From: Anaerolineae bacterium
GTDB lineage: Bacteria; Chloroflexota; Anaerolineae; Aggregatilineales; Phototrophicaceae
Direction: 5' to 3'
NCBI GenBank assembly: GCA_016788625.1
Contig: JAEUQX010000252.1
Location: forward strand, 1-36,525
DNA length: 36,525 bases
Shown here: piece by piece, positions 11,761 through 22,834 of the stretch
Numbering within the stretch: the first letter of the stretch is position 1
Layout: each line of letters opens with the position of its first letter
Position numbers and translations under genes: made by a program
The notes under the pieces: generated by a model
Databases searched by the model: none
What the model saw: the letters and a program-made list of their open reading frames with translations, nothing else
Told to the model about the DNA's origin: nothing

Positions 11761-11826
11761 ATCTTAGCACACAATCGAAATCAGGGGAAATAAGCCTTAT
11801 GCTACGTCGATCAGGCCTTTAGGTAG

Positions 11827-11856
11827 TTGTTAGTTCCCGCGCATAGGCTGTAGAAT
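11827..11856 (+). promoter_or_regulatory. Sigma-70 promoter candidate for the exopolysaccharide operon
   Basis: TTGTTA (11827-11832) and TAGAAT (11851-11856) are separated by 18 bases. Transcription would start near 11863, leaving a leader of about 26-35 bases. The -10 matches five of six consensus bases. It is the only good candidate in the divergent gap. Confidence 0.5.
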
Positions 11857-11888
11857 AGGGAAATCCTGGCCTTATTTAGAGAAAAGGG

Positions 11889-13898
11889 ATGAGCGCCGTG
11901 AAAACAGCCTCGCCTCTCCAAATTGTATTCAAGCTCGTCCTGAAGTGGTGGTGGTTGATGCTGATCGCCGTCGCTTTGGGCGCAGGTGTGGGTTATCTGA
12001 TTCGCACCAGTCAGCCCAATTTATACTTTGCGCGGGCGACGATCTGGTTCGGCGGAGATGTTGAAAACACGATTGCGAATGTTGATGCATTTGAGCAAAT
12101 CAATGCGCTTGTCACGATCTATTCAGGGCTGGCGCGGCGCGAAAATATCCTTGAACCGGTGATTAATCGTCTGAACCTGGGCATATCTGTGCCGCAGCTT
12201 CAGGAACGTATGTATACCAGTGCGGATCTCACCCTGCCGCTTATGGAAATTGTGGTGGCTGATACAGACCCGGTGAGGGCTGCTGAAATCGCCAATGCCA
12301 TCGCCCAGCAGTTGATTGAAAACAGTCCGACCGAACGCGAGTCGGAAGAAACGGCCTTCAAGCGCCAGCAGTTGCGAGATCTGGCCTCGCAGATTCAGAC
12401 GTTGAACACTCAGTATGAAACGGATGTGGCGGCCGGCGCAGACCTGACCAACGCTTTCCAGATCGCCCAGAACCTCCAGCAGCGCAATGCGACGCTGGCG
12501 ACCATCCGCGAGCTTCAGTCGCTTTATGCTGAACTGAGCATGGGACTGGGGAGTTCGGTCAATTCACTGGTACTCTATGACGCAGCTACAGCGGAGAACG
12601 CCCTGGTGGTGCAGGGTTCCGCGATGAGCATCATTCTCTCAGGCGTGGCGGGTCTGGCAGTTTCGATTGCGACCATTGTGCTGATCGCCTTCCTGGACGA
12701 CCGTTTGCAGTGGCATGAGGGGCTGGAATTCGTTCACGGCGTGAAGGTTCTGGGTCCTTTGGGCGTCATTCCGCGCAATAAACTGCCGCTCTACATCGAG
12801 ACCATGCCCGATACTATCGAAAGTGAGATGCTGCGGCAGTTACGCGCCAAGCTGGTGCTCGCAGCAGGCGGCGAACCTCCGCGCCTCGTCACCGTCACCA
12901 GCTATGACTCTGGCGATGGTAAGACGGTGACATCGGCGAATCTGGCGCTGGCATCCGCGCGTTCCGGCCTGCGGACATTGCTGATTGATGGTGATATTCG
13001 TAAGGGCGACATCCACGAAGTGTTTCGTCTGCCCAACGTGATGGGGCTGACGGACATCGTGTCCAGCCGCGAGAATGTTGATTTGCTGCTCTCCCGTGCG
13101 CTGCTGGAAAGCGGCTACGATAACCTGACGGTGCTGACTTCCGGGCGCTCGACCGCTGATCCATCGGCGCTGGTCAGCAGCCCGCGTTTTGCCGCTGTGA
13201 TCGAGTCGCTCAAGATGCGTTTTGATACCGTCATCATGGACTCGGTGCCGACGATTGGCGGCCCGGACTCGGCTTTCATGGCTGAACTCAGCGATGGCGT
13301 CGTGATCGTCATACACGGCCAGCGCACGACAGAGAAGTCCTTCAAGCGCACCCTGCAAACCATTCAACAGGGGCGCAATGTCAACATCTTCGGCATGGTC
13401 TTCAACCGCATCCCGCTTCAGGTGACCAGTTCGTACAGCAAACCGTACTACCGTCGCACACTGACGATCAGCCCGGACAAGCTCAGCAAAGAACTGCTTT
13501 CGGCAGGCAAGAAACGCTCGCTCGTGGCCTTCAACCGCAACGTGATGGTGGACAAGAACGGCGACCGTTTGTATTCAATGGCCGCCGCCGCGCTGCAACT
13601 GGGCATCACCGAAAAGGGGCTGCGCTATTGGCTGGACTCCGGGCAGTTGACCAGCGAACGACGCGGGCTGCGCCGCTGGGTTCGCGAGTCGGAGATCGGT
13701 CTGCTGTTGGAAAAACTGCCACGTTATGAGTCTGCGCAGAACGGAATGACCGAACAGTCGGTTAAATCTGACGGGCTGCGTACTCCCAACGGCAGCCACG
13801 CGGGCAGCCTGCCGCTTGGCGCGCGTGAAGCGCTGCTGGCCTCGGCCCGCACAGCACCGGATGACAAGCCGGAAGTTGCAGACGATCAACAAACTTAG
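11889..13898 (+). CDS. Wzz/BY-kinase polysaccharide co-polymerase with C-terminal HTH domain
   Basis: A 669-residue fusion. Residues 1-270 are a Wzz chain-length domain: TM1 about 21-38, a periplasmic helical part (about 150-215), and TM2 about 245-268. Residues 310-510 are a bacterial tyrosine-kinase domain with Walker A SYDSGDGKT (338-346), Walker A' LLIDGDIR (365-371) and Walker B VIMDSVP (448-454). A small tyrosine cluster follows (Y516, Y520, Y521), a possible autophosphorylation site, whereas most BY-kinases carry it at the extreme C-terminus. Here about 110 more residues include a MerR/excisionase-like HTH (about 560-610: AAAALQLGITEKGLRYWLDSG...RRWVRESEI). Cytoplasmic ATP use should control chain length and export. 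AAAAGGG abuts the ATG at 11889; the in-frame GTG at 11898 has better spacing and may be the real start. First gene of the operon. Confidence 0.88.
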   Translation: MSAVKTASPLQIVFKLVLKWWWLMLIAVALGAGVGYLIRTSQPNLYFARATIWFGGDVENTIANVDAFEQINALVTIYSGLARRENILEPVINRLNLGISVPQLQERMYTSADLTLPLMEIVVADTDPVRAAEIANAIAQQLIENSPTERESEETAFKRQQLRDLASQIQTLNTQYETDVAAGADLTNAFQIAQNLQQRNATLATIRELQSLYAELSMGLGSSVNSLVLYDAATAENALVVQGSAMSIILSGVAGLAVSIATIVLIAFLDDRLQWHEGLEFVHGVKVLGPLGVIPRNKLPLYIETMPDTIESEMLRQLRAKLVLAAGGEPPRLVTVTSYDSGDGKTVTSANLALASARSGLRTLLIDGDIRKGDIHEVFRLPNVMGLTDIVSSRENVDLLLSRALLESGYDNLTVLTSGRSTADPSALVSSPRFAAVIESLKMRFDTVIMDSVPTIGGPDSAFMAELSDGVVIVIHGQRTTEKSFKRTLQTIQQGRNVNIFGMVFNRIPLQVTSSYSKPYYRRTLTISPDKLSKELLSAGKKRSLVAFNRNVMVDKNGDRLYSMAAAALQLGITEKGLRYWLDSGQLTSERRGLRRWVRESEIGLLLEKLPRYESAQNGMTEQSVKSDGLRTPNGSHAGSLPLGAREALLASARTAPDDKPEVADDQQT

Positions 13899-13928: not shown

Positions 13929-15497
13929 ATGATCAACAACGTGATCGAAAACCTGACCGACCGCGTGCGGATGGCGCTGCTCCAGGAAGCGTCAATTGTC
14001 GGAAAGATGCGTTACTTCTTCCTGGATCGCCATTACAGCCTGACGATTCGTGTGCTGTTGGTGCTGCTCTGCATGGGCGTTACCCTGACATCGACCTTTC
14101 TCCTGCGTGAAAGTTCGCTTACGGGCAACTTCATCAAAGGGCTGATTCCGGTCGTAGCGATGATTGGCATTGCCGTTGTCTTGTTCGTCTACTCTAACTT
14201 TGAGCTGACGGCGGTGATGATTTTCATCGTCACACTCACGGTCGCGGACGGCGTGGGTACGGGCACGGGCACCAAGATCACGCTGACGTTCATGGGGTTG
14301 AACCTGTGGGCGGCATTGTGGTTGTTCAAGCTGGTGATCGTTGATCGGAAGATTGCCGTGCGCCCGTCGGTATCTAACGTTCCTACGATGATTTTCCTCG
14401 CCATCGTGCTGATTTCATTCATCTGGTCGAACATTTTCGTCGATGTGCCCGTCAGCTATATCTTCCAGGAAAAGTTCTTTCAGCGCACCATGACCATGGT
14501 GAGTCTGGTCATCGCACCGATCACCGCGATCATGTACGCCAATCACATCCGTTCCATTCGCACCATCAAGATCATGGTTTACTACATGATCTTCTGCGGC
14601 TTTGTCTTTGGCGCTATGCGCATCGCCATGGGCTACGTCATCAACCCACTCAACATAAAGGGGTTGTTCCCGATGTGGGTGGGCGCGCTGGCATTGGGGC
14701 AGCTTCTGTTCAATACCAATCTGAAATGGTACATCCGTGTCGCGATGGCAGCAGTCGTCGGCATGTGGTACTACATCCAGTTGGGCTTGGGGCTGTCGTG
14801 GCTCAGCGGGTGGATACCGCTTTCGATTGTCATCGTCATCATTGTCACAATCTATTCGCGCAAGCTGCTGTTGGTGGCAATCCTGGTCGCTGCTGCCTAT
14901 GTGCTGATCAACCTGAGTTCGCTGCAAGAGAATTTTGCGCGTGAAGATGAGGAGTCCGGCGGCACGCGCAACGCTGCCTGGTCGGAAGCGCTGGCTCACG
15001 CTGATGATCACCTGTTCCTGGGGTCTGGGCCAGCAGGGTATTATTTCTATTACACCATCTATGGCTTCCGAGCCAATCTTTCGCACAACAACTACATTGA
15101 CATCATCGCGCAGACGGGGCTGGTCGGCTTCACAGCCTATATCCTGATGTGGCTGGCGTTTGGTCGCATGAACCTCCGAATGTATTGGCTTGTGCCGAAT
15201 GACAACGGTTTCCTGCATGGTCTAAAGATATCGCTGATAGCCTGCTGGGTAGCGACGATGGTTGCCATGATGCTGGGCGACTGGGTCACGCCATTTCCCT
15301 ATACGCAGGGGTTGAATGGCATCGACTATGCCATCTGGGCGTGGATCTTCCAGGGGATGGCGGTTGCGCTGTGCCACCTGATGCAGCGGCAGGCAACCGT
15401 TGACCAACTGCCAGAGATTGGGCCGAAGCGCTTTGATATTCGTCTACCCAGCCTGGCTTCTGGTCGCCGTCAGTCTACGCAGCCTGCTTCAGATTGA
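13929..15497 (+). CDS. O-antigen ligase/Wzy-type polysaccharide polymerase
   Basis: A 522-residue protein with about eleven to twelve TM helices. Near residues 337-390 lies the large extracytoplasmic loop typical of the Wzy_C/O-antigen-ligase family (GGTRNAAWSEALAHADDHLFLGSGPAGYYF...LSHNNYIDIIAQTGLVGF), with the conserved G-x-G-P and H-N-x-Y-I elements. These proteins join lipid-linked repeat units into polymer, or transfer polymer to an acceptor, on the outer face of the membrane. Position next to the Wzz-kinase favours the polymerase role. It starts 30 bases after the kinase gene and ends 14 bases before the BNR gene. The short C-terminal tail after the last helix (PKRFDIRLPSLASGRRQ) is cytoplasmic and basic. 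Confidence 0.85.
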   Translation: MINNVIENLTDRVRMALLQEASIVGKMRYFFLDRHYSLTIRVLLVLLCMGVTLTSTFLLRESSLTGNFIKGLIPVVAMIGIAVVLFVYSNFELTAVMIFIVTLTVADGVGTGTGTKITLTFMGLNLWAALWLFKLVIVDRKIAVRPSVSNVPTMIFLAIVLISFIWSNIFVDVPVSYIFQEKFFQRTMTMVSLVIAPITAIMYANHIRSIRTIKIMVYYMIFCGFVFGAMRIAMGYVINPLNIKGLFPMWVGALALGQLLFNTNLKWYIRVAMAAVVGMWYYIQLGLGLSWLSGWIPLSIVIVIIVTIYSRKLLLVAILVAAAYVLINLSSLQENFAREDEESGGTRNAAWSEALAHADDHLFLGSGPAGYYFYYTIYGFRANLSHNNYIDIIAQTGLVGFTAYILMWLAFGRMNLRMYWLVPNDNGFLHGLKISLIACWVATMVAMMLGDWVTPFPYTQGLNGIDYAIWAWIFQGMAVALCHLMQRQATVDQLPEIGPKRFDIRLPSLASGRRQSTQPASD

Positions 15498-15511
15498 TCA
15501 CGGAGTATTGA

Positions 15512-17071
15512 ATGTCAGAAAAGATGACCATCCGCCTGGGATGCTGGTTGGTGTTGTTCATCGGCCTTGTTGTTGCGGCAATGCCCGCGCGGGCGCAGGA
15601 CAGTCTGGAGCGCTGGTCGCCGCCGCTGAATCTGGGCAAAGGTTGGTGGCAGTCTGTCACGACAGATAGCCAGGGCAATCTGCATGTTGGCTGGTACAAC
15701 GGTATTGGTGTTGAAGGCACTGCCTTCGACTTCCTGACCTATGCACAGCGCCGCCTTGATGGCACCTGGAGCGAGCCGAACGAGGTAATCTTCACTACGA
15801 CGGGCGGTTACACGGTGCGTAACGCCCTGGCCGTGACCAGCAATGGTCGCATCTTTTCCGTACATCGCAACGAAATCGCTCACTTCTTGTCCAGTTCGGT
15901 TGTCGCTGCCGCCGATAATGCTTCGACCTGGTCGGAACCCACGCGAATCAGCAGCAGCGGATATTATGTCGACATGCTGGCCGACCGGAACGACAATCTG
16001 CACATTGTTTTCAGCGGCACCGTGGACACCCTAGCGCCTCCGCCTGGGGGAGGTAACCCGGAAGCCAGCATCTGCGCCTACTGTCAGGATTTGTTCTACC
16101 GCCGTTCGACCGACCAGGGAGCATCGTGGAGCGACCCTTACCCGTTGTCCATTGAGGTGGCGACAGGTTCTGACCGAATGAACATCATTCAGGGTGACAG
16201 CGGACGGCTGTATATCTTCTGGGATGAAGGCTACGACTGGTATATTGGCAAGGGGCAGGCGCAGGATGTGCGCTTCGTCTATTCGCTTGATCAGGGCGAG
16301 ACCTGGTCTGAACCTATCATCATTGATGGCGGGGGGTTCAGCGATCGCCGTCCGATACAGATCGCAATGACAGAAACGCGCGATGGCTCATTGATGGTTA
16401 TCTGGCGCTATTCGAATGATACTGATCGCGGCATCTATTACCAGATTTCCTCCGATCTGGGACAAACCTGGACGGCGCGACAACCCATTCCCGGCATCGT
16501 CGCGCGTTACACCAACGACACCCCGCTGGACGACTTTGATCTGATCACTGATCGTCTAGGCAATATCCACGCTTTTGTGGTCGCGCAGCCCAATCTGTTG
16601 AGCACGGCCAACGCGGGTTTGTATCATATCACCTATCAGCAGGGCGAGTGGCTGGCACCGCAGCGCGTGTTTTACAGCCCTATCATGCGCCCCGAATGGC
16701 CGAAGGTCGCGCTGGGGCCATCGAACGACATTCACCTGACCTGGTTCATTCGTGGTATCCGTGAAAACTTATCCGGACAGCAGGATGCGACGGGCATCCT
16801 GGAAGTTTTTTATAGTCATCTCGATGGCAATTTGCAGCCCGAACCGACGCGCGAATTCCTGCCGACCAACACGCCGTTGCCCACAGCGACGATCTTCCTG
16901 AACCTCGATCCGACGCTGACTCCTTTCCCCACCCTGGAAGGCATTGACCCTAACCTCGCACTGGTGACAATGGACACTTATGGTTCAACTGCGGTGCTCG
17001 GCGGTCTGTTTACCTCAGCAATCTTCTGCCTGGCGGTCGCGGTTGGCTTGCGCTTCTGGAGGCGGTTGTAA
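15512..17071 (+). CDS. Exported, membrane-anchored BNR/sialidase-fold protein
   Basis: A 519-residue protein with a Sec signal peptide (residues about 1-28, ending AMPARA-QD) and a C-terminal TM anchor (about 491-515) followed by RFWRRL, so the body is outside the cell. Three good Asp-box motifs (S-x-D-x-G-x-x-W) occur at 199-206, 258-265 and 313-320, and weaker ones near 135-141. This is the six-bladed propeller of sialidases and other BNR proteins. I do not see a convincing sialidase arginine triad or an FRIP motif, so glycan binding, or hydrolysis of another sugar, is as likely as sialidase action. A Pro/Thr-rich linker (about 445-475) spaces the domain from the membrane. Its place inside the exopolysaccharide operon suggests it handles the polymer. 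Confidence 0.78.
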   Translation: MSEKMTIRLGCWLVLFIGLVVAAMPARAQDSLERWSPPLNLGKGWWQSVTTDSQGNLHVGWYNGIGVEGTAFDFLTYAQRRLDGTWSEPNEVIFTTTGGYTVRNALAVTSNGRIFSVHRNEIAHFLSSSVVAAADNASTWSEPTRISSSGYYVDMLADRNDNLHIVFSGTVDTLAPPPGGGNPEASICAYCQDLFYRRSTDQGASWSDPYPLSIEVATGSDRMNIIQGDSGRLYIFWDEGYDWYIGKGQAQDVRFVYSLDQGETWSEPIIIDGGGFSDRRPIQIAMTETRDGSLMVIWRYSNDTDRGIYYQISSDLGQTWTARQPIPGIVARYTNDTPLDDFDLITDRLGNIHAFVVAQPNLLSTANAGLYHITYQQGEWLAPQRVFYSPIMRPEWPKVALGPSNDIHLTWFIRGIRENLSGQQDATGILEVFYSHLDGNLQPEPTREFLPTNTPLPTATIFLNLDPTLTPFPTLEGIDPNLALVTMDTYGSTAVLGGLFTSAIFCLAVAVGLRFWRRL

Positions 17072-17155
17072 CGCCTGTGTAAGCGATAGGCATCTGCAAG
17101 GCATATCGACTATCCTCATAACGTTTCATTTGGCAATCCAGCAGGTGCTATCTCC

Positions 17156-17599
17156 ATGGCGCTCAACACAACGCCGGTCACAGAAGACAACATGACAATG
17201 CCCGCGCAGCAGGTCAGCAACGCCAATCTCCAGTCCGTCGGCCTGGTGCTTGCCAGCGTCGCCTGTGGCGCTGTCGGTCAACTGACGCTCAAGGCCGCGA
17301 TGAACTCGCTCGGCAGTTTGCAGCTTTCGGTCGAAACGCTGGTGCGGATGGCGACCAGCCCGCTGCTGCTCGTCGGGGTCGCGATCTTCGGAATCAGTAC
17401 GCTGTTGTGGCTGTTTGCGCTGGCGAAGGCGGATCTGAGCTTCGCCTATCCATTCCTTAGCCTCACCTATATTGTTGTCCTCTTCGGTGGCGCAATCCTG
17501 TTCCATGAGGCAGTCACCCCGATGCGCGTCATCGGCTTTGCCGTAATCGTCACGGGTGTTTGGATTGTCGCGCGTAGCGAAAAGAAAAAGCAGGGCTGA
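17156..17599 (+). CDS. Four-TM SMR/EamA-family transporter (ArnE-like flippase candidate)
   Basis: A 147-residue protein with four TM helices at about 29-48, 64-84, 90-110 and 115-137 and a basic tail (SEKKKQG). Its length and the GQLTLKAAM, FALAKADLSFAYPFLSLTYIVVL and VIGFAVIVTGVWIV blocks match small multidrug-resistance/EamA proteins, especially the ArnE/ArnF type that flip undecaprenyl-linked amino sugars. In this operon, which lacks a MATE-type Wzx, it is the only candidate for moving a lipid-linked sugar. It would be expected to act as a dimer. GCAGGTG lies eight bases before the ATG. An 84-base gap separates it from the BNR gene, while the next gene begins two bases after its stop. Confidence 0.8.
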   Translation: MALNTTPVTEDNMTMPAQQVSNANLQSVGLVLASVACGAVGQLTLKAAMNSLGSLQLSVETLVRMATSPLLLVGVAIFGISTLLWLFALAKADLSFAYPFLSLTYIVVLFGGAILFHEAVTPMRVIGFAVIVTGVWIVARSEKKKQG

Positions 17600-17601
17600 A
17601 C

Positions 17602-18915
17602 ATGGGGGTTGGCATCATCGGTGGCGGCCTGATGGGTATGGCTCTGGCCTACCATCTGGCGCGGCAGGGCGAACAGGTTACCGTACTGGAGCAGGATTCC
17701 GAACTGGGCGGCTTGAACGGTGAACTGCGCTTTGACGATGGTTTGCGCGTAGCCCGCTACCAACATGCGATTCTCCCAATTGATCGGATGTTGTATAACC
17801 TGTGCACCGAGCTGGGGCTGCAAGACGATCTGTTGTTCCAGAACGCACATGCCGGGTTCGTTCATGGTGGTCAGATTTACGCCATGACCAATATCCTCGA
17901 TTTTCTGACATTCCCGATGCTTGGCCTGATCGACCGCTTCCGTTTGGGTGGAGTCATCCTGCGCGCGCGCAGCAAGGCTGATTGGCGCGAGCTTGACGAG
18001 CTGCCGGTCAAAGAGTGGCTCGTGCGGGTGGGCGGTGTCGAAGCGTTTGAGCGGGTCTGGCGTCCGCTGCTGGAAGCGAAGTTCGATGGGGTATACGATC
18101 ATGTGTCGGCTACCTACATCTGGGCCTGGCTCAACCGCATGTCGTCGATCCGGCGTGTGCCGCAGATGAACGGCAGCATCGGTTATCTGCGGCGCGGGCA
18201 TTTTTCGCTTATTCAATCCCTGGCGGAAGCACTCCTCCGGCTCGGCGGTAAGATTGAATACAATGCCCGTGTGCGCGAGATCGAACTTGGCGATGGCCGA
18301 ATGCAGCGCATCCGCACGCAGACACAGGTTAAGGAATTCGATGTGGTGGTTGCCGCCATCGCGACGCCGAATTTTTTGCGGTTGATCCCCGGCGCAGATA
18401 ATGCTTACAAGGCGCGCCTGACGAATGCTAAGTACCTGGGGTTAATCTGCCCTGTGCTGGTGGTCGAAAAGCGTCTCTCCCCATATTGGACGCTGAACCT
18501 GACGGATCCCACGTTTCCGTTCTCGGTGATTATCGAGACGCCACATCCGGAACATCCCTCGAATTATGTCGTGTACCTACCGCGTTACACCGCGCCGGAC
18601 AACGATTGGATGGGGGTATCTGATGAGGACATCCGCGAGGCATGGTTCAGCCATCTGCACCAAATCTTCCCGACATTTGATGAGGCCGCCGTGCGCCACT
18701 TCGCCGTCAGCCGCTCACGTTATGTCGAACCCGTCTATCTGGTCAATAATCTGGCAAATGATATTGGCATATTGACGCCCTACGATGGTCTGTACCTGGC
18801 CAATACGCGCCAGACCTACCCGGAACTGCCGACAAGCGAAGCTGTGATCAAACATGCCCAGCACGTCGCTTCAGTGATTTCCAAAGCGCGGCCTGCCTCA
18901 ACCCAGATGGGATAA
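17602..18915 (+). CDS. FAD-dependent oxidoreductase (amine oxidase/UDP-galactopyranose-mutase-like)
   Basis: A 437-residue flavoprotein. The N-terminal dinucleotide motif GVGIIGGGLMGMALAYHLARQGEQVTVLE (residues 2-30) and the following GGLNG are the FAD-binding signature of the amine-oxidase/protoporphyrinogen-oxidase/UGM clan. Near the C-terminus, GLYLANTRQTYPELPTSEAVIKHA is the second FAD-contact segment. There is no signal peptide or TM anchor, so it is cytoplasmic. In polysaccharide loci such enzymes may interconvert or oxidise nucleotide or lipid-linked sugars, but the substrate cannot be read here. It is packed between the SMR gene (two-base gap) and the first glycosyltransferase (three-base gap), so it surely belongs to the operon. 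Confidence 0.82.
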   Translation: MGVGIIGGGLMGMALAYHLARQGEQVTVLEQDSELGGLNGELRFDDGLRVARYQHAILPIDRMLYNLCTELGLQDDLLFQNAHAGFVHGGQIYAMTNILDFLTFPMLGLIDRFRLGGVILRARSKADWRELDELPVKEWLVRVGGVEAFERVWRPLLEAKFDGVYDHVSATYIWAWLNRMSSIRRVPQMNGSIGYLRRGHFSLIQSLAEALLRLGGKIEYNARVREIELGDGRMQRIRTQTQVKEFDVVVAAIATPNFLRLIPGADNAYKARLTNAKYLGLICPVLVVEKRLSPYWTLNLTDPTFPFSVIIETPHPEHPSNYVVYLPRYTAPDNDWMGVSDEDIREAWFSHLHQIFPTFDEAAVRHFAVSRSRYVEPVYLVNNLANDIGILTPYDGLYLANTRQTYPELPTSEAVIKHAQHVASVISKARPASTQMG

Positions 18916-18918
18916 ACC

Positions 18919-20106
18919 ATGCGCGTTTTACTGCTGACACAGGTCTTGCCCTATCCGCCCGACAGCGGCCCCAAAGTCAAGACCTACTACGTCCTCAAGT
19001 ACCTCGCCACAAAACACCAGGTCACATTAGTCTCGTTTGTGCGCGACACCGATAAGCCGGAATACATCCGCCATCTGGAGACGCTGTGCGAGCGCGTCAT
19101 CACCGTACCCATCACGCGGTCACCTGTCAAAGACCTGCTGTTCCTGGGCAAGAGCATCTTCAGCGGCCAACCCTGGATGATGCTGCGTGACGAACGCCCG
19201 GAGATGCGCGCGGCGCTGCGCGATCTGGCGGCCACGACGTATTTCGATGTCGTCCACGCTGACCAGCTCAATATGGGGCAGTACGCGCTGCCCTTCACCA
19301 AGAGTCGCAAAGTGCTTGACCTGCACAACGCGCTGTGGGTGCTCTATAAGCGGTTGGCGGAGACGCTGCCGCCCAGCAAGCCGATGAAATACATCCTGAT
19401 GCGCGACTGGCCGCTGCTCAAGCGCTACGAAGGCGCGATGTGCCGGGCTTTCGATGCGGTGCTGGCCGTCAGCCAGGAAGATCGCCAGGCGTTGACCGAG
19501 GCGGGTGCGCGCCCGGAGATGCCGATCATCCCAATCGCAGTCGATACCGACGAGCAGGCGCAGATCGCCCGCGCGCCGAAGGGGCCGCACATCGTTCACA
19601 TCGGCACCATGTACTGGCCGCCCAATATCGCGGGCATCACCTGGTTCCTCGATGAGATTTACCCGCTGATCAAACAGCGCGTGCCGGATGTGCGCTGCAC
19701 GCTGATCGGCGCGCGTCCGCCGACCAGCATCACCGAGCGCGCGCAGAGCGACCCCTCGCTGACGGTGACGGGTTACGTGGAAGATCCTGTGCCTTATTTG
19801 GCCGATTCCAGCATGATGGTCGTGCCGCTGCAAGCGGGCGGGGGGATGCGCGTCAAGATACTCAACGCGCTCTCACAGGGTATCCCGATGGTCAGCACAA
19901 CGGTCGGCTGTGAAGGCATCGCCGTCGCCCACGAGCGCGATATCATGATCGCAGACAAGCCCGCCGATTTTGCCGAAGCGACGGTCCGACTGCTGACTGA
20001 CGCTGAACTGAACCGCCGTATCACCGAACAAGGGCGGCGCACTGTTGTGGAAACCTATGATTACCGCCAGGCCTGCCGTCCACTGGACGCGATTTATACA
20101 GGGTAG
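18919..20106 (+). CDS. Glycosyltransferase family 4, first of two
   Basis: A 395-residue GT-B enzyme. The N-terminal domain begins MRVLLLTQVLPYPPDSGPKVKTYYVLKYL, typical of GT4 proteins of the TIGR03087 type, and a VVHADQLNMGQYA block follows. The C-terminal domain has HIGTMYWPPNIAGITWFLDEI, VTGYVEDPVPYLADSSMMVVPL and GGGMRVKILNALSQGIPMVST. The last of these carries the sugar-nucleotide site, although the usual E-x7-E is changed to K-x-L-N-A. Transfer of one sugar from a nucleotide donor to the lipid-linked repeat unit is expected at the inner face of the membrane. Donor and acceptor are unknown. Confidence 0.85.
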   Translation: MRVLLLTQVLPYPPDSGPKVKTYYVLKYLATKHQVTLVSFVRDTDKPEYIRHLETLCERVITVPITRSPVKDLLFLGKSIFSGQPWMMLRDERPEMRAALRDLAATTYFDVVHADQLNMGQYALPFTKSRKVLDLHNALWVLYKRLAETLPPSKPMKYILMRDWPLLKRYEGAMCRAFDAVLAVSQEDRQALTEAGARPEMPIIPIAVDTDEQAQIARAPKGPHIVHIGTMYWPPNIAGITWFLDEIYPLIKQRVPDVRCTLIGARPPTSITERAQSDPSLTVTGYVEDPVPYLADSSMMVVPLQAGGGMRVKILNALSQGIPMVSTTVGCEGIAVAHERDIMIADKPADFAEATVRLLTDAELNRRITEQGRRTVVETYDYRQACRPLDAIYTG

Positions 20107-20109
20107 GTC

Positions 20110-21300
20110 ATGAAGATACTGTTCGTCGCTCCGTATCTGCCGTCGCTCATCCGCGTGCGTCCGTACAACCTTCTACGCGCATTGGTTAATCGTGGGCACG
20201 AGGTCACGCTTGCGGCGCTGCAACCGCCCAGCGACGATGATGGGCCGTTAGTCGAACTTCGTAAGCTGTGCAAAGCGGTGCATGTCGTGCCGCATGGCCG
20301 TGTACAGACGCTGCTCAACGGCGTATTGGCGCTTCCCAGCAGCACCCCGATTCAGGCGGCCTACTCGCGCTCGCCCGCCTTCGCCAGCCACATGCGCGAG
20401 GTTCTGGCGCGCGAAACGTTCGATGTCGTCCATCTTGAGCATCTGCGTGGGGCCGTGCTGGCCGAGGCGCTGCCGGGTCTGCCGATTGTGTTCGACTCGG
20501 TGGACAGCATCGCGCTGCTGTTCGGCAAGGTGCTGCAAGATGCGCCCAGCCTGAAGAGCCGTCTGTTGGCCGCGCTCGACCTGGAGCGCACGCGGCGTTT
20601 TGAAGGTCAGTTGACGCAGCGCTTCCGCCAGGTGACGGTGACGAGCGAGGCTGACCGCCGCGCCCTGATCGAGATGGGCAGCGATGGCGAGCGGATCACC
20701 GTGATCGCCAATGGGGTTGACCTGGAGTATTTCCAGCCCCAGGCGCTAGAACGTAATCCCCGGCGATTGGTGTTTACGGGCAAGATGAGCTACCATGCCA
20801 ATATTGCCGCTGCCGAAGACCTGGTGGAAAAGATCATGCCGCTGGTCTGGGCGCAGGAACCAGAGGCCGAGCTGTATATTGTCGGTAAAGATCCGACGCC
20901 CGCCGTGTTGAAACTCGGCGAGAGGCCGAAGGTCACTGTCACCGGGTCTGTGCCGGATCTGCGCCCGTATATCGCCCAGGCTGCCGTCGCTATCAGCACG
21001 GTGCGCTACGGTGTCGGCATTCAGAACAAGGTGCTGGAAGCGATGGCGATGGGGACACCTGTCGTCTGTTCGACCCAAGCCAGTTCCGCGCTGAAGATCG
21101 AAAACGGGCGCGACCTGTTGATAGGCGATACGCCCGCTGCGATTGCCGATCACATTATCGGCCTGCTGCGTTCCGCCGAGCGCCGTGTGCAGCTCGGTAC
21201 AGCAGGGCGTGCTTACGTCGAAATGCACCATAACTGGAATCATGCTGCGGCAGTATTAGAGGTATTGTATCAGCGCGCTATTGCGCATGATTCGAGGTAA
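20110..21300 (+). CDS. Glycosyltransferase family 4, second of two
   Basis: A 396-residue GT-B enzyme, paralogous in layout to the preceding gene: MKILFVAPYLPSLIRVRPYNLLRALVNRGHEVTLA at the start, VVHLEHLRGAVLA in the acceptor domain, TVIANGVDLEYFQP at the domain junction, LVFTGKMSYHANIAAAEDLVEKI and VGIQNKVLEAMAMGTPVVCST in the donor domain. Unlike its neighbour it keeps the E of the KVLEAMA motif. It should add a second, probably different, sugar. GGGTAGG lies directly before the ATG, and three bases separate it from the previous stop. An alternative role on another acceptor is possible, but operon packing argues for the same pathway. Confidence 0.88.
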   Translation: MKILFVAPYLPSLIRVRPYNLLRALVNRGHEVTLAALQPPSDDDGPLVELRKLCKAVHVVPHGRVQTLLNGVLALPSSTPIQAAYSRSPAFASHMREVLARETFDVVHLEHLRGAVLAEALPGLPIVFDSVDSIALLFGKVLQDAPSLKSRLLAALDLERTRRFEGQLTQRFRQVTVTSEADRRALIEMGSDGERITVIANGVDLEYFQPQALERNPRRLVFTGKMSYHANIAAAEDLVEKIMPLVWAQEPEAELYIVGKDPTPAVLKLGERPKVTVTGSVPDLRPYIAQAAVAISTVRYGVGIQNKVLEAMAMGTPVVCSTQASSALKIENGRDLLIGDTPAAIADHIIGLLRSAERRVQLGTAGRAYVEMHHNWNHAAAVLEVLYQRAIAHDSR

Positions 21301-21304
21301 TCCC

Positions 21305-22834
21305 ATGAGCAGCCAGACAGCCAAGTCGCCGAAAATCGATGCGGGGTATGTCACCCTCAATCCCACCGACCTGATCAATTCCATCCGCGGTCACAGCCGC
21401 AACAAGATGCGCCTGGCGCGCGTCGTGCTGCTGCTGCTGGATGCAATAGCGGTGGGTATGGCGTTGCTGGTGGCTTATAACCTGCGTTTCATCCTGCCCA
21501 CGACAGCCCTGTTTGATCCCGGTGGATTCATTAATCGGGCCTACTATGCCGGGTTTGCCTACCTGCTCATCCCGCTCTGGCTGATCCTGTTTGTGCTGTT
21601 CCGCATGTACGACCCTGCAGTACTGTTCGGCGGTTTGCAGGAATATGCCAACGCTTTCAACGCCTGTACCGTTGGCATCATGATCGTGATCGTTGCCAGC
21701 TACCTGGATCCCTCGCTGCTGGTAGCGCGCGGCTGGCTGTTGATTGCCTGGAGCTTGTCGATCTTCCTGGTGTTCCTGGAGCGATTTGCCTTTCGCCGCG
21801 TGATCTACAATCTGCGCCAGCGCGGGCACTTCATGTCTCCGGCCTACATCGTCGGCGCGAACCAGGAAGGGATTGCCATCGCCGAGCAGTTGATAAGCGC
21901 CCCCATCGCGGGCATCAATATCATCGGCTTCCTGGATGACACCATGAAGGTGGGTGAAGAGGTTCTGCCGGGGTTGGTCGTTCACGGCCCGACGACGCGC
22001 GCGGAAATCCTGGTGCAGCGTTTTGGAATCGAGCGCCTGATTGTGGCAACGAGCGGTGTTCAGCGCGACAAGCTGCTTGACGTTTTTCGGCGTTACATGA
22101 ACTCCAACGATGTCTCGGTGTGGCTGTCGTCCGGCATGTATGAAATCATGACCACTGGCGTGCGCGTGCAGGATGTGGGCAGCGTGCCGATGGTCAGCGT
22201 CAACCGCGTGCGGCTGACCGGGCCGAACATTGTTGCCAAGGCCATCCTCGATTATGTTGGCGCGACGTTGGGGCTGATCGTGCTGTCGCCGTTATTCCTG
22301 GTCGTCGCCATTCTGATGAAGCGCACCGATCCCGGCCCGATCTTCTACCCTCGCCGCGTTGTGGGTGTGGGCGGCAAGGAGTTCAACGCTTTCAAGTTCC
22401 GCACGATGGTCGTCAATTCGCAGGAAGTGCTGGACGATCTTCTGGCACGCGACCCGGAAGCGCGCGAAGAATGGAACAAATACTACAAGCTCAAGAATGA
22501 CCCGCGCATCACCCGGATTGGAGCATTTCTGCGCAAGACCAGCTTTGACGAACTGCCGCAGCTTGTCAACGTACTGCGCGGCGAGATGAGTCTGGTTGGG
22601 CCGCGTATGATCACCATGGAAGAAGTCGAGAAATACGGGCGTTGGGGGTTGAACCTGCACACGGTCAAGCCGGGCATCACCGGATTATGGCAAACATCTG
22701 GCCGCAGCGAACTGACATATGAGGAGCGCGTGCGGTTGGATATGCGCTACATCCGCAATTACACCATCTGGCTGGACATCCAAATCCTGATTCAGACAGT
22801 GCCCGCGGTATTGATGAGTCGCGGCGCGTACTGA
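21305..22834 (+). CDS. Initiating polyprenyl-phosphate sugar-phosphate transferase (PNPT, WbaP/EpsE-like)
   Basis: A 509-residue enzyme that starts repeat-unit synthesis by moving a sugar-1-phosphate from a nucleotide sugar to undecaprenyl phosphate. It has four TM helices in the first 170 residues, then a Rossmann-like domain ([16 protein letters not shown], about 180-300) of the CoA-binding_3 type, a membrane hairpin (about 310-335), and the catalytic Bac_transf domain with [26 protein letters not shown] and [14 protein letters not shown]. The frame opens at 21281, but ATG at 21305 follows GAGGTAA at proper spacing and the previous stop by four bases. It is the last gene of the operon. The sugar is not predictable; glucose, galactose or an acetylated sugar are all used by the family. 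Confidence 0.9.

Follow-up and report, generated by a model that had tools for sequence, protein, structure and literature searches.

Whether a membrane tyrosine kinase of exopolysaccharide export can carry a DNA-binding-type domain on its own chain, and what such a domain would do there, is the question raised by a locus of an Anaerolineae bacterium (Chloroflexota; GCA_016788625.1, contig JAEUQX010000252.1). The whole stretch of DNA that was analysed, 36,525 nt long, is called the window below, and all positions refer to it. A sequence-only reading of this stretch had proposed that the chain of a membrane BY-kinase continues, past its tyrosine cluster, into an extra MerR/excisionase helix-turn-helix (HTH), with which the kinase might contact DNA or sense a ligand and so connect polymer export with gene control. 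The protein in question is composed of the following parts.

11889..13898, plus strand: Wzz/BY-kinase with C-terminal HTH, 669 aa
11946..12692, plus strand: Wzz part, with TM1 at about residues 20-39, a periplasmic part and TM2 at about residues 244-268 (from the sequence, and from TIGR01006/Wzz in relatives)
12804..13412, plus strand: BY-kinase domain, with ExxRxxR at residues 313-319, Walker A GDGKT at 342-346, Walker A' LIDGDIR at 365-371 and Walker B VIMDSVP at 448-454
13434..13451, plus strand: tyrosine cluster Y516, Y520, Y521, its YY invariant in the genus
13563..13724, plus strand: predicted excisionase/MerR-type helix-turn-helix, residues 559-612 (profile matches of the window protein and relatives)
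13809..13853, plus strand: C-terminal motif LRxQRDALLxxxR, residues 641-655, conserved in the genus only, probably a short helix

By its profile match, the product of 11889-13898 is a BY-kinase of the TIGR01007/Wzc type: it scores 130.4 bits against TIGR01007 (polysaccharide tyrosine autokinases), above the curated cut-off of 108.05. The conserved start of the frame is probably the GTG at 11898 and not the ATG at 11889. The two TM segments were assigned from hydrophobicity by eye; Pfam Wzz reaches E=1 in the window protein and is significant in 13 of 17 relatives. The kinase domain belongs to the ParA/MinD superfamily, and its residues E313, R316, R319, K345, D367, D369, R371, D451 and P454 are invariant in the genus. 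With the Wzc/Etk-type BY-kinases (PCP-2a; TIGR01007, CapB/CpsD), the protein shares the Wzz-type membrane part, the Walker A/A'/B and ExxRxxR motifs and the tyrosine cluster, as well as a place in an exopolysaccharide operon with Wzy. The difference lies at the C-terminus: whereas Wzc ends in a tyrosine-rich tail, the cluster of the window kinase is short (three residues only) and internal, at the positions given for it earlier (516, 520 and 521), and about 148 residues that include the HTH come after it. The extra tail is present, as had been claimed, but the length of about 110 residues stated for it runs from residue 560 to the end of the protein and is not the length of what follows the tyrosine cluster.

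The HTH is found exactly where it had been placed, since 13566-13718 corresponds to residues 560-610 of the 669-aa frame, and the two strings quoted from it occur at residues 571-585 and 595-610. Judged from profiles, residues 559-612 belong to the winged helix-turn-helix (wHTH) domains of excisionase/MerR type. Pfam MerR_1 matches residues 562-596 of the window protein (E=6e-4), scoring 20.3 on the full protein and 22.4 on the isolated segment against a cut-off of 21.6. HTH_17 is weak in the window's own protein, below its cut-off, but is present in 16 of 17 diverse clade members (best 3.7e-15), as is TIGR01764, and in all 15 rows of an alignment limited to the genus and G024, a member of a second genus of the family. 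The clade-wide HTH profile matches the structures of the phage excisionase Xis Gp37 (6.8e-8), RacA (7.8e-6) and BldC (1.7e-4); the profile of the genus with G024 matches Xis Gp37 (2.6e-4) and RacA (0.007). BldC is also among the weak PDB matches of the window sequence searched singly, and one clade member matches the CbpM model. Structures were predicted for the tail (163 aa) and for the HTH alone (63 aa) from the window and one related sequence aligned. Because this alignment is too shallow, both models are of low confidence (pLDDT 43 and 58); they have helices where the HTH is expected and an unformed wing, and a Foldseek search with the second model, likewise of low confidence, gave no match. 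The domain search (MerR_1/HTH_17), together with conservation and purifying selection, upholds the proposal of a MerR/excisionase HTH behind the tyrosine cluster.

The likeness to excisionase/HTH_17/BldC wHTH domains extends to the signature LGV...T..W...G.L.A...G..W...., the invariant Trp and the basic wing. Those are small free proteins, whereas here the domain is fused to a membrane kinase and, in the window's genus, is devoid of the base-reading Arg. A 669-aa kinase fusion, it is not a small free protein of the BldC family, which binds direct repeats head to tail. Nor is the protein a MerR regulator proper, which has an N-terminal HTH, a coiled-coil dimer helix and an effector domain; here a membrane kinase bears the HTH at its C-terminal end.

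Is the tail more than an accident of one genome or one gene call? All orthologs of the genus that extend far enough to reveal a tail have it, as does G024 (42% identical), which rules out a peculiarity of a single genome. Far from being absent from all close homologues, the tail is carried by genus orthologs and by class-wide relatives, and is thus not due to chance. Averaged over pairs, identity is highest in the kinase (0.68), followed by the LRxQRDALLxxxR motif (0.58) and the HTH (0.51), and falls to 0.18 in the linker that comes after the HTH. The motif, which lies behind this variable linker, is amphipathic in several orthologs. In three close pairs with moderate dS, the HTH has dN/dS of about 0.13, 0.10 and 0.07, about as low as the kinase; it is under purifying selection in these pairs, which excludes a mis-called frame or a chance product. 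Between the window and its nearest relative (L001 vs L006), with dS saturated, dN is 0.45 in the HTH vs 0.13 in the kinase, so that the window's HTH diverges faster than its kinase.

Within the phylum genomes sampled, the architecture was seen in a part of one class. Of 396 genomes of Anaerolineae, at least 18 encode a kinase that the profile matches all the way across the HTH (E <= 2.2e-203; the next best, without the HTH, 1.6e-194), a lower bound because three candidates per genome were scored. These genomes fall in families f1, f14, f17, f23, f41, f48, f52 and f55; further carriers are G035 (f6) and, as a contig-end fragment, G044 (f12). The HTH kinase of G035 (L023) has a frame break inside TM2 at CTAGGGGGCTG, probably an assembly error but perhaps a real break, and was not counted as evidence for a split gene. 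In about 200 other genomes of the class the BY-kinase match stops near the tyrosine cluster, and in a phylum-wide sample of 400 genomes, matches that cover the HTH were seen in Anaerolineae only. Genome contigs scanned with the window protein alone yielded one close relative. Among the matches listed for 546 plasmid records with BY-kinases (protein query L040), none passes residue 546, which lies before the HTH of L040, and a profile scan of viral contigs with the clade alignment found no relative.

In a tree built from the Wzz and kinase portions, with the HTH left out, all 29 carriers lie within one branch of 34 rows (SH-aLRT 98), and HTH presence requires 4 label changes vs 24 in shuffles; FastTree agrees. 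On this midpoint-rooted tree, whose root was not inferred, the pattern would fit a single ancient fusion followed by about three losses (f18, f43 and L057 of f20), the tails there being ordinary tyrosine ends or other sequence. Three BY-kinases nested in the HTH clade (L057, L068 and L120) lack the HTH and have other long C-terminal tails, and BY-kinase frames of 870-980 aa in the phylum survey (G696:C16, G592:C68, G532:C2) suggest other C-terminal fusions in Chloroflexota. We found no description of a BY-kinase fused to an HTH in the open-access literature, most subscription journals being outside its scope; the kinase with an HTH tail is a real and apparently unreported architecture.

A few residues bear on whether the domain could read DNA. 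Arg30 of BldC reads bases, its neighbour Trp31 touches the DNA backbone, and RacA uses an equivalent Arg (PMC5859096). The Trp is invariant among carriers, and the residue before it is R, K or H in all 16 carriers outside the window's group (the genus and G024). Within this group the corresponding residue 580 (13626-13628) is Y, N, E, D, S or G in 17 of 17 proteins and basic in none; the position of BldC K33 is D583 in the window protein. Wing arginines are retained in the group, and the net charge of the HTH is on average still positive. By sequence, DNA binding is thus well supported for carriers in the wider clade, whereas in the genus of the window it is doubtful or altered.

The surroundings of the gene offer a candidate target.

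13929..22834, plus strand: exopolysaccharide operon downstream of the kinase, order conserved in the genus and G024
11818..11835, plus strand: 18-bp conserved element TTTAGG-N3-TTGTTAGTT, candidate operator, overlapping the -35 box
11827..11856, plus strand: putative sigma70-like promoter TTGTTA-18-TAGAAT, a consensus match, no more than shuffles lead one to expect, supported by conservation

The kinase is the first gene of the operon and is followed by Wzy_C, a BNR protein, EamA, an amine oxidase-like protein, two GT4 and a Bac_transf initiating transferase; this order is common to the genus and the same in G024, there without the EamA gene. The BNR (sialidase-like repeat) protein, at 15512-17068, is kept inside the operon across the genus. 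Some distant carriers also adjoin Wzy_C, Wzx-type or glycosyltransferase genes. The 18-bp element is common to upstream regions that otherwise cannot be aligned. Its single exact match in its own genome stands before the kinase gene, and so do all eight exact matches, one per genome, in 17 genomes of the genus; besides it, the kinase upstream region holds no convincing operator repeat. The element could serve as operator for the HTH of the kinase itself, as the site of another regulator or simply as a strong promoter. It lies inside 11761-11888, the region previously proposed as the target of the tail, and this fits autoregulation.

It is tempting to speculate that the protein is a Wzc-like co-polymerase and autokinase whose ring-displayed HTHs bind DNA in a phosphorylation-gated manner, with the element at the promoter of its own operon as the target. 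We hold this account tentatively and somewhat short of calling it probable, but such kinase-gated DNA contact is our leading mechanism; its DNA binding, multivalency, gating by phosphorylation and target are what we infer from the observed domain architecture, its conservation, the single branch, the operon context and the locus-specific element. In Wzc, the tyrosine tail enters the active site of the neighbouring subunit and phosphorylation breaks the octamer (PMC11986026). Since the HTH lies about 40 residues past the tyrosine cluster, it would be gathered in such a ring and released with it. The wHTH would have become attached C-terminally to the tyrosine cluster, probably a single time, in some ancestor inside the class Anaerolineae. 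By analogy with Wzc, subunits that are not phosphorylated would assemble into a ring in the membrane that encircles the Wzy polymerase, the tyrosine tail of each inserted in the active site of its neighbour; the HTHs borne on these tails would be presented together in the cytoplasm as a multivalent crown with cooperative DNA binding, and autophosphorylation would make the ring fall apart and lower the avidity for DNA. The conserved promoter element would be the likeliest target in the window's genus, and operon expression could then respond to how far the exporter is assembled. In general terms, this suggests that the assembly of a surface polymer is linked to DNA physically and directly: a one-chain relay from envelope to DNA, in which ring assembly and phosphorylation set how up to eight HTHs bind DNA, for operon control or as a chromosome tether, without a separate regulator. 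We regard such a relay as possible, with slightly more reserve than the mechanism itself.

Kinase-gated DNA contact draws on the intact kinase motifs, the presence of HTH_17 and TIGR01764 in 16 of 17 members, the profile matches to DNA-binding structures, the basic residue before the Trp in the wider clade, the purifying selection on the HTH in close pairs, the single branch and the locus-specific element; the tail-gated octamer of Wzc, the action of CpsD on ParB and the DNA-activated kinase YabT are precedents. It has against it the missing base-reading Arg (17 of 17), D583 in place of K33 of BldC, the higher dN of the HTH (0.45 vs 0.13 in the kinase), the uninformative structure models and the other roles that the element may have. 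A further argument against it comes from CpsD, of all BY-kinases the one whose link to the chromosome is best studied: it acts on ParB, to which it ties the capsule, but DNA binding of its own was not detected (PMC4574921). Because the base-reading Arg is lost in the window's genus, the HTH might instead serve protein binding, as does the MerR fold of CbpM, which binds a J-domain; it would dock a further partner in the cytoplasm, or cap the tail of tyrosines and modulate how the ring assembles, and contact with DNA would have been lost at least in this genus. The fast evolution of the window's HTH agrees with this, as do the clade member matching CbpM, which lacks DNA-binding residues and serves protein binding (PMC4063869), and the genus-only C-terminal motif, which suggests a partner site. 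Set against the retained wing arginines and invariant Trp, the on average positive charge and the RRW relatives that resemble ordinary DNA binders, we consider a protein-binding module rather unlikely, though a serious contender.

Less probable still is that the HTH, with no strong preference for particular sequences, holds the exporter at the nucleoid, as RacA and RocS link membrane and chromosome, so that export would be placed or timed with chromosome segregation and the kinase would merge the roles of pneumococcal CpsD and RocS. RacA is the second-best structure match, RocS is a membrane-bound DNA binder with a MerR-type wHTH and a partner of CpsD (PMC11500499; PMC7022226), and the kinase domain is of the ParA/MinD superfamily; however, the promoter element points to a local target, and several clade members have lost the HTH. 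Those losses, about three in the clade, and the divergence in the window could also be taken to mean that the tail is a functionless vestige or a chance insertion. The conservation of the tail makes this very improbable: it is kept in 16 complete or near-complete orthologs of family f1 and in at least eight families, and wherever dS is measurable in close pairs its HTH is constrained about as strongly as the kinase (dN/dS about 0.07-0.13).

The features united here are known from separate proteins. The pneumococcal CpsD-ParB-RocS system likewise has a BY-kinase tied to the chromosome and, in RocS, a MerR-type wHTH at the membrane, but there the kinase and the DNA binder are separate, whereas here both domains are on one chain. 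RacA shares the MerR-type HTH, according to the profile match, but is not a kinase; its partners are sites on the chromosome and DivIVA, the polar anchor. YabT, a membrane kinase that DNA activates (PMC6333020), resembles the window protein in having a DNA-contacting part, which in our case is only proposed; it is a Hanks-type Ser/Thr kinase with a disordered basic region and without an HTH. If kinase-gated DNA contact is true, the present protein would combine features of CpsD, RocS and YabT in one chain. The finding bears on how bacteria couple the assembly of capsule or exopolysaccharide to gene expression and the cell cycle: pneumococcus needs CpsD, ParB and RocS for this, and a conserved clade with a DNA-binding-type domain on the kinase itself provides a compact, testable case.
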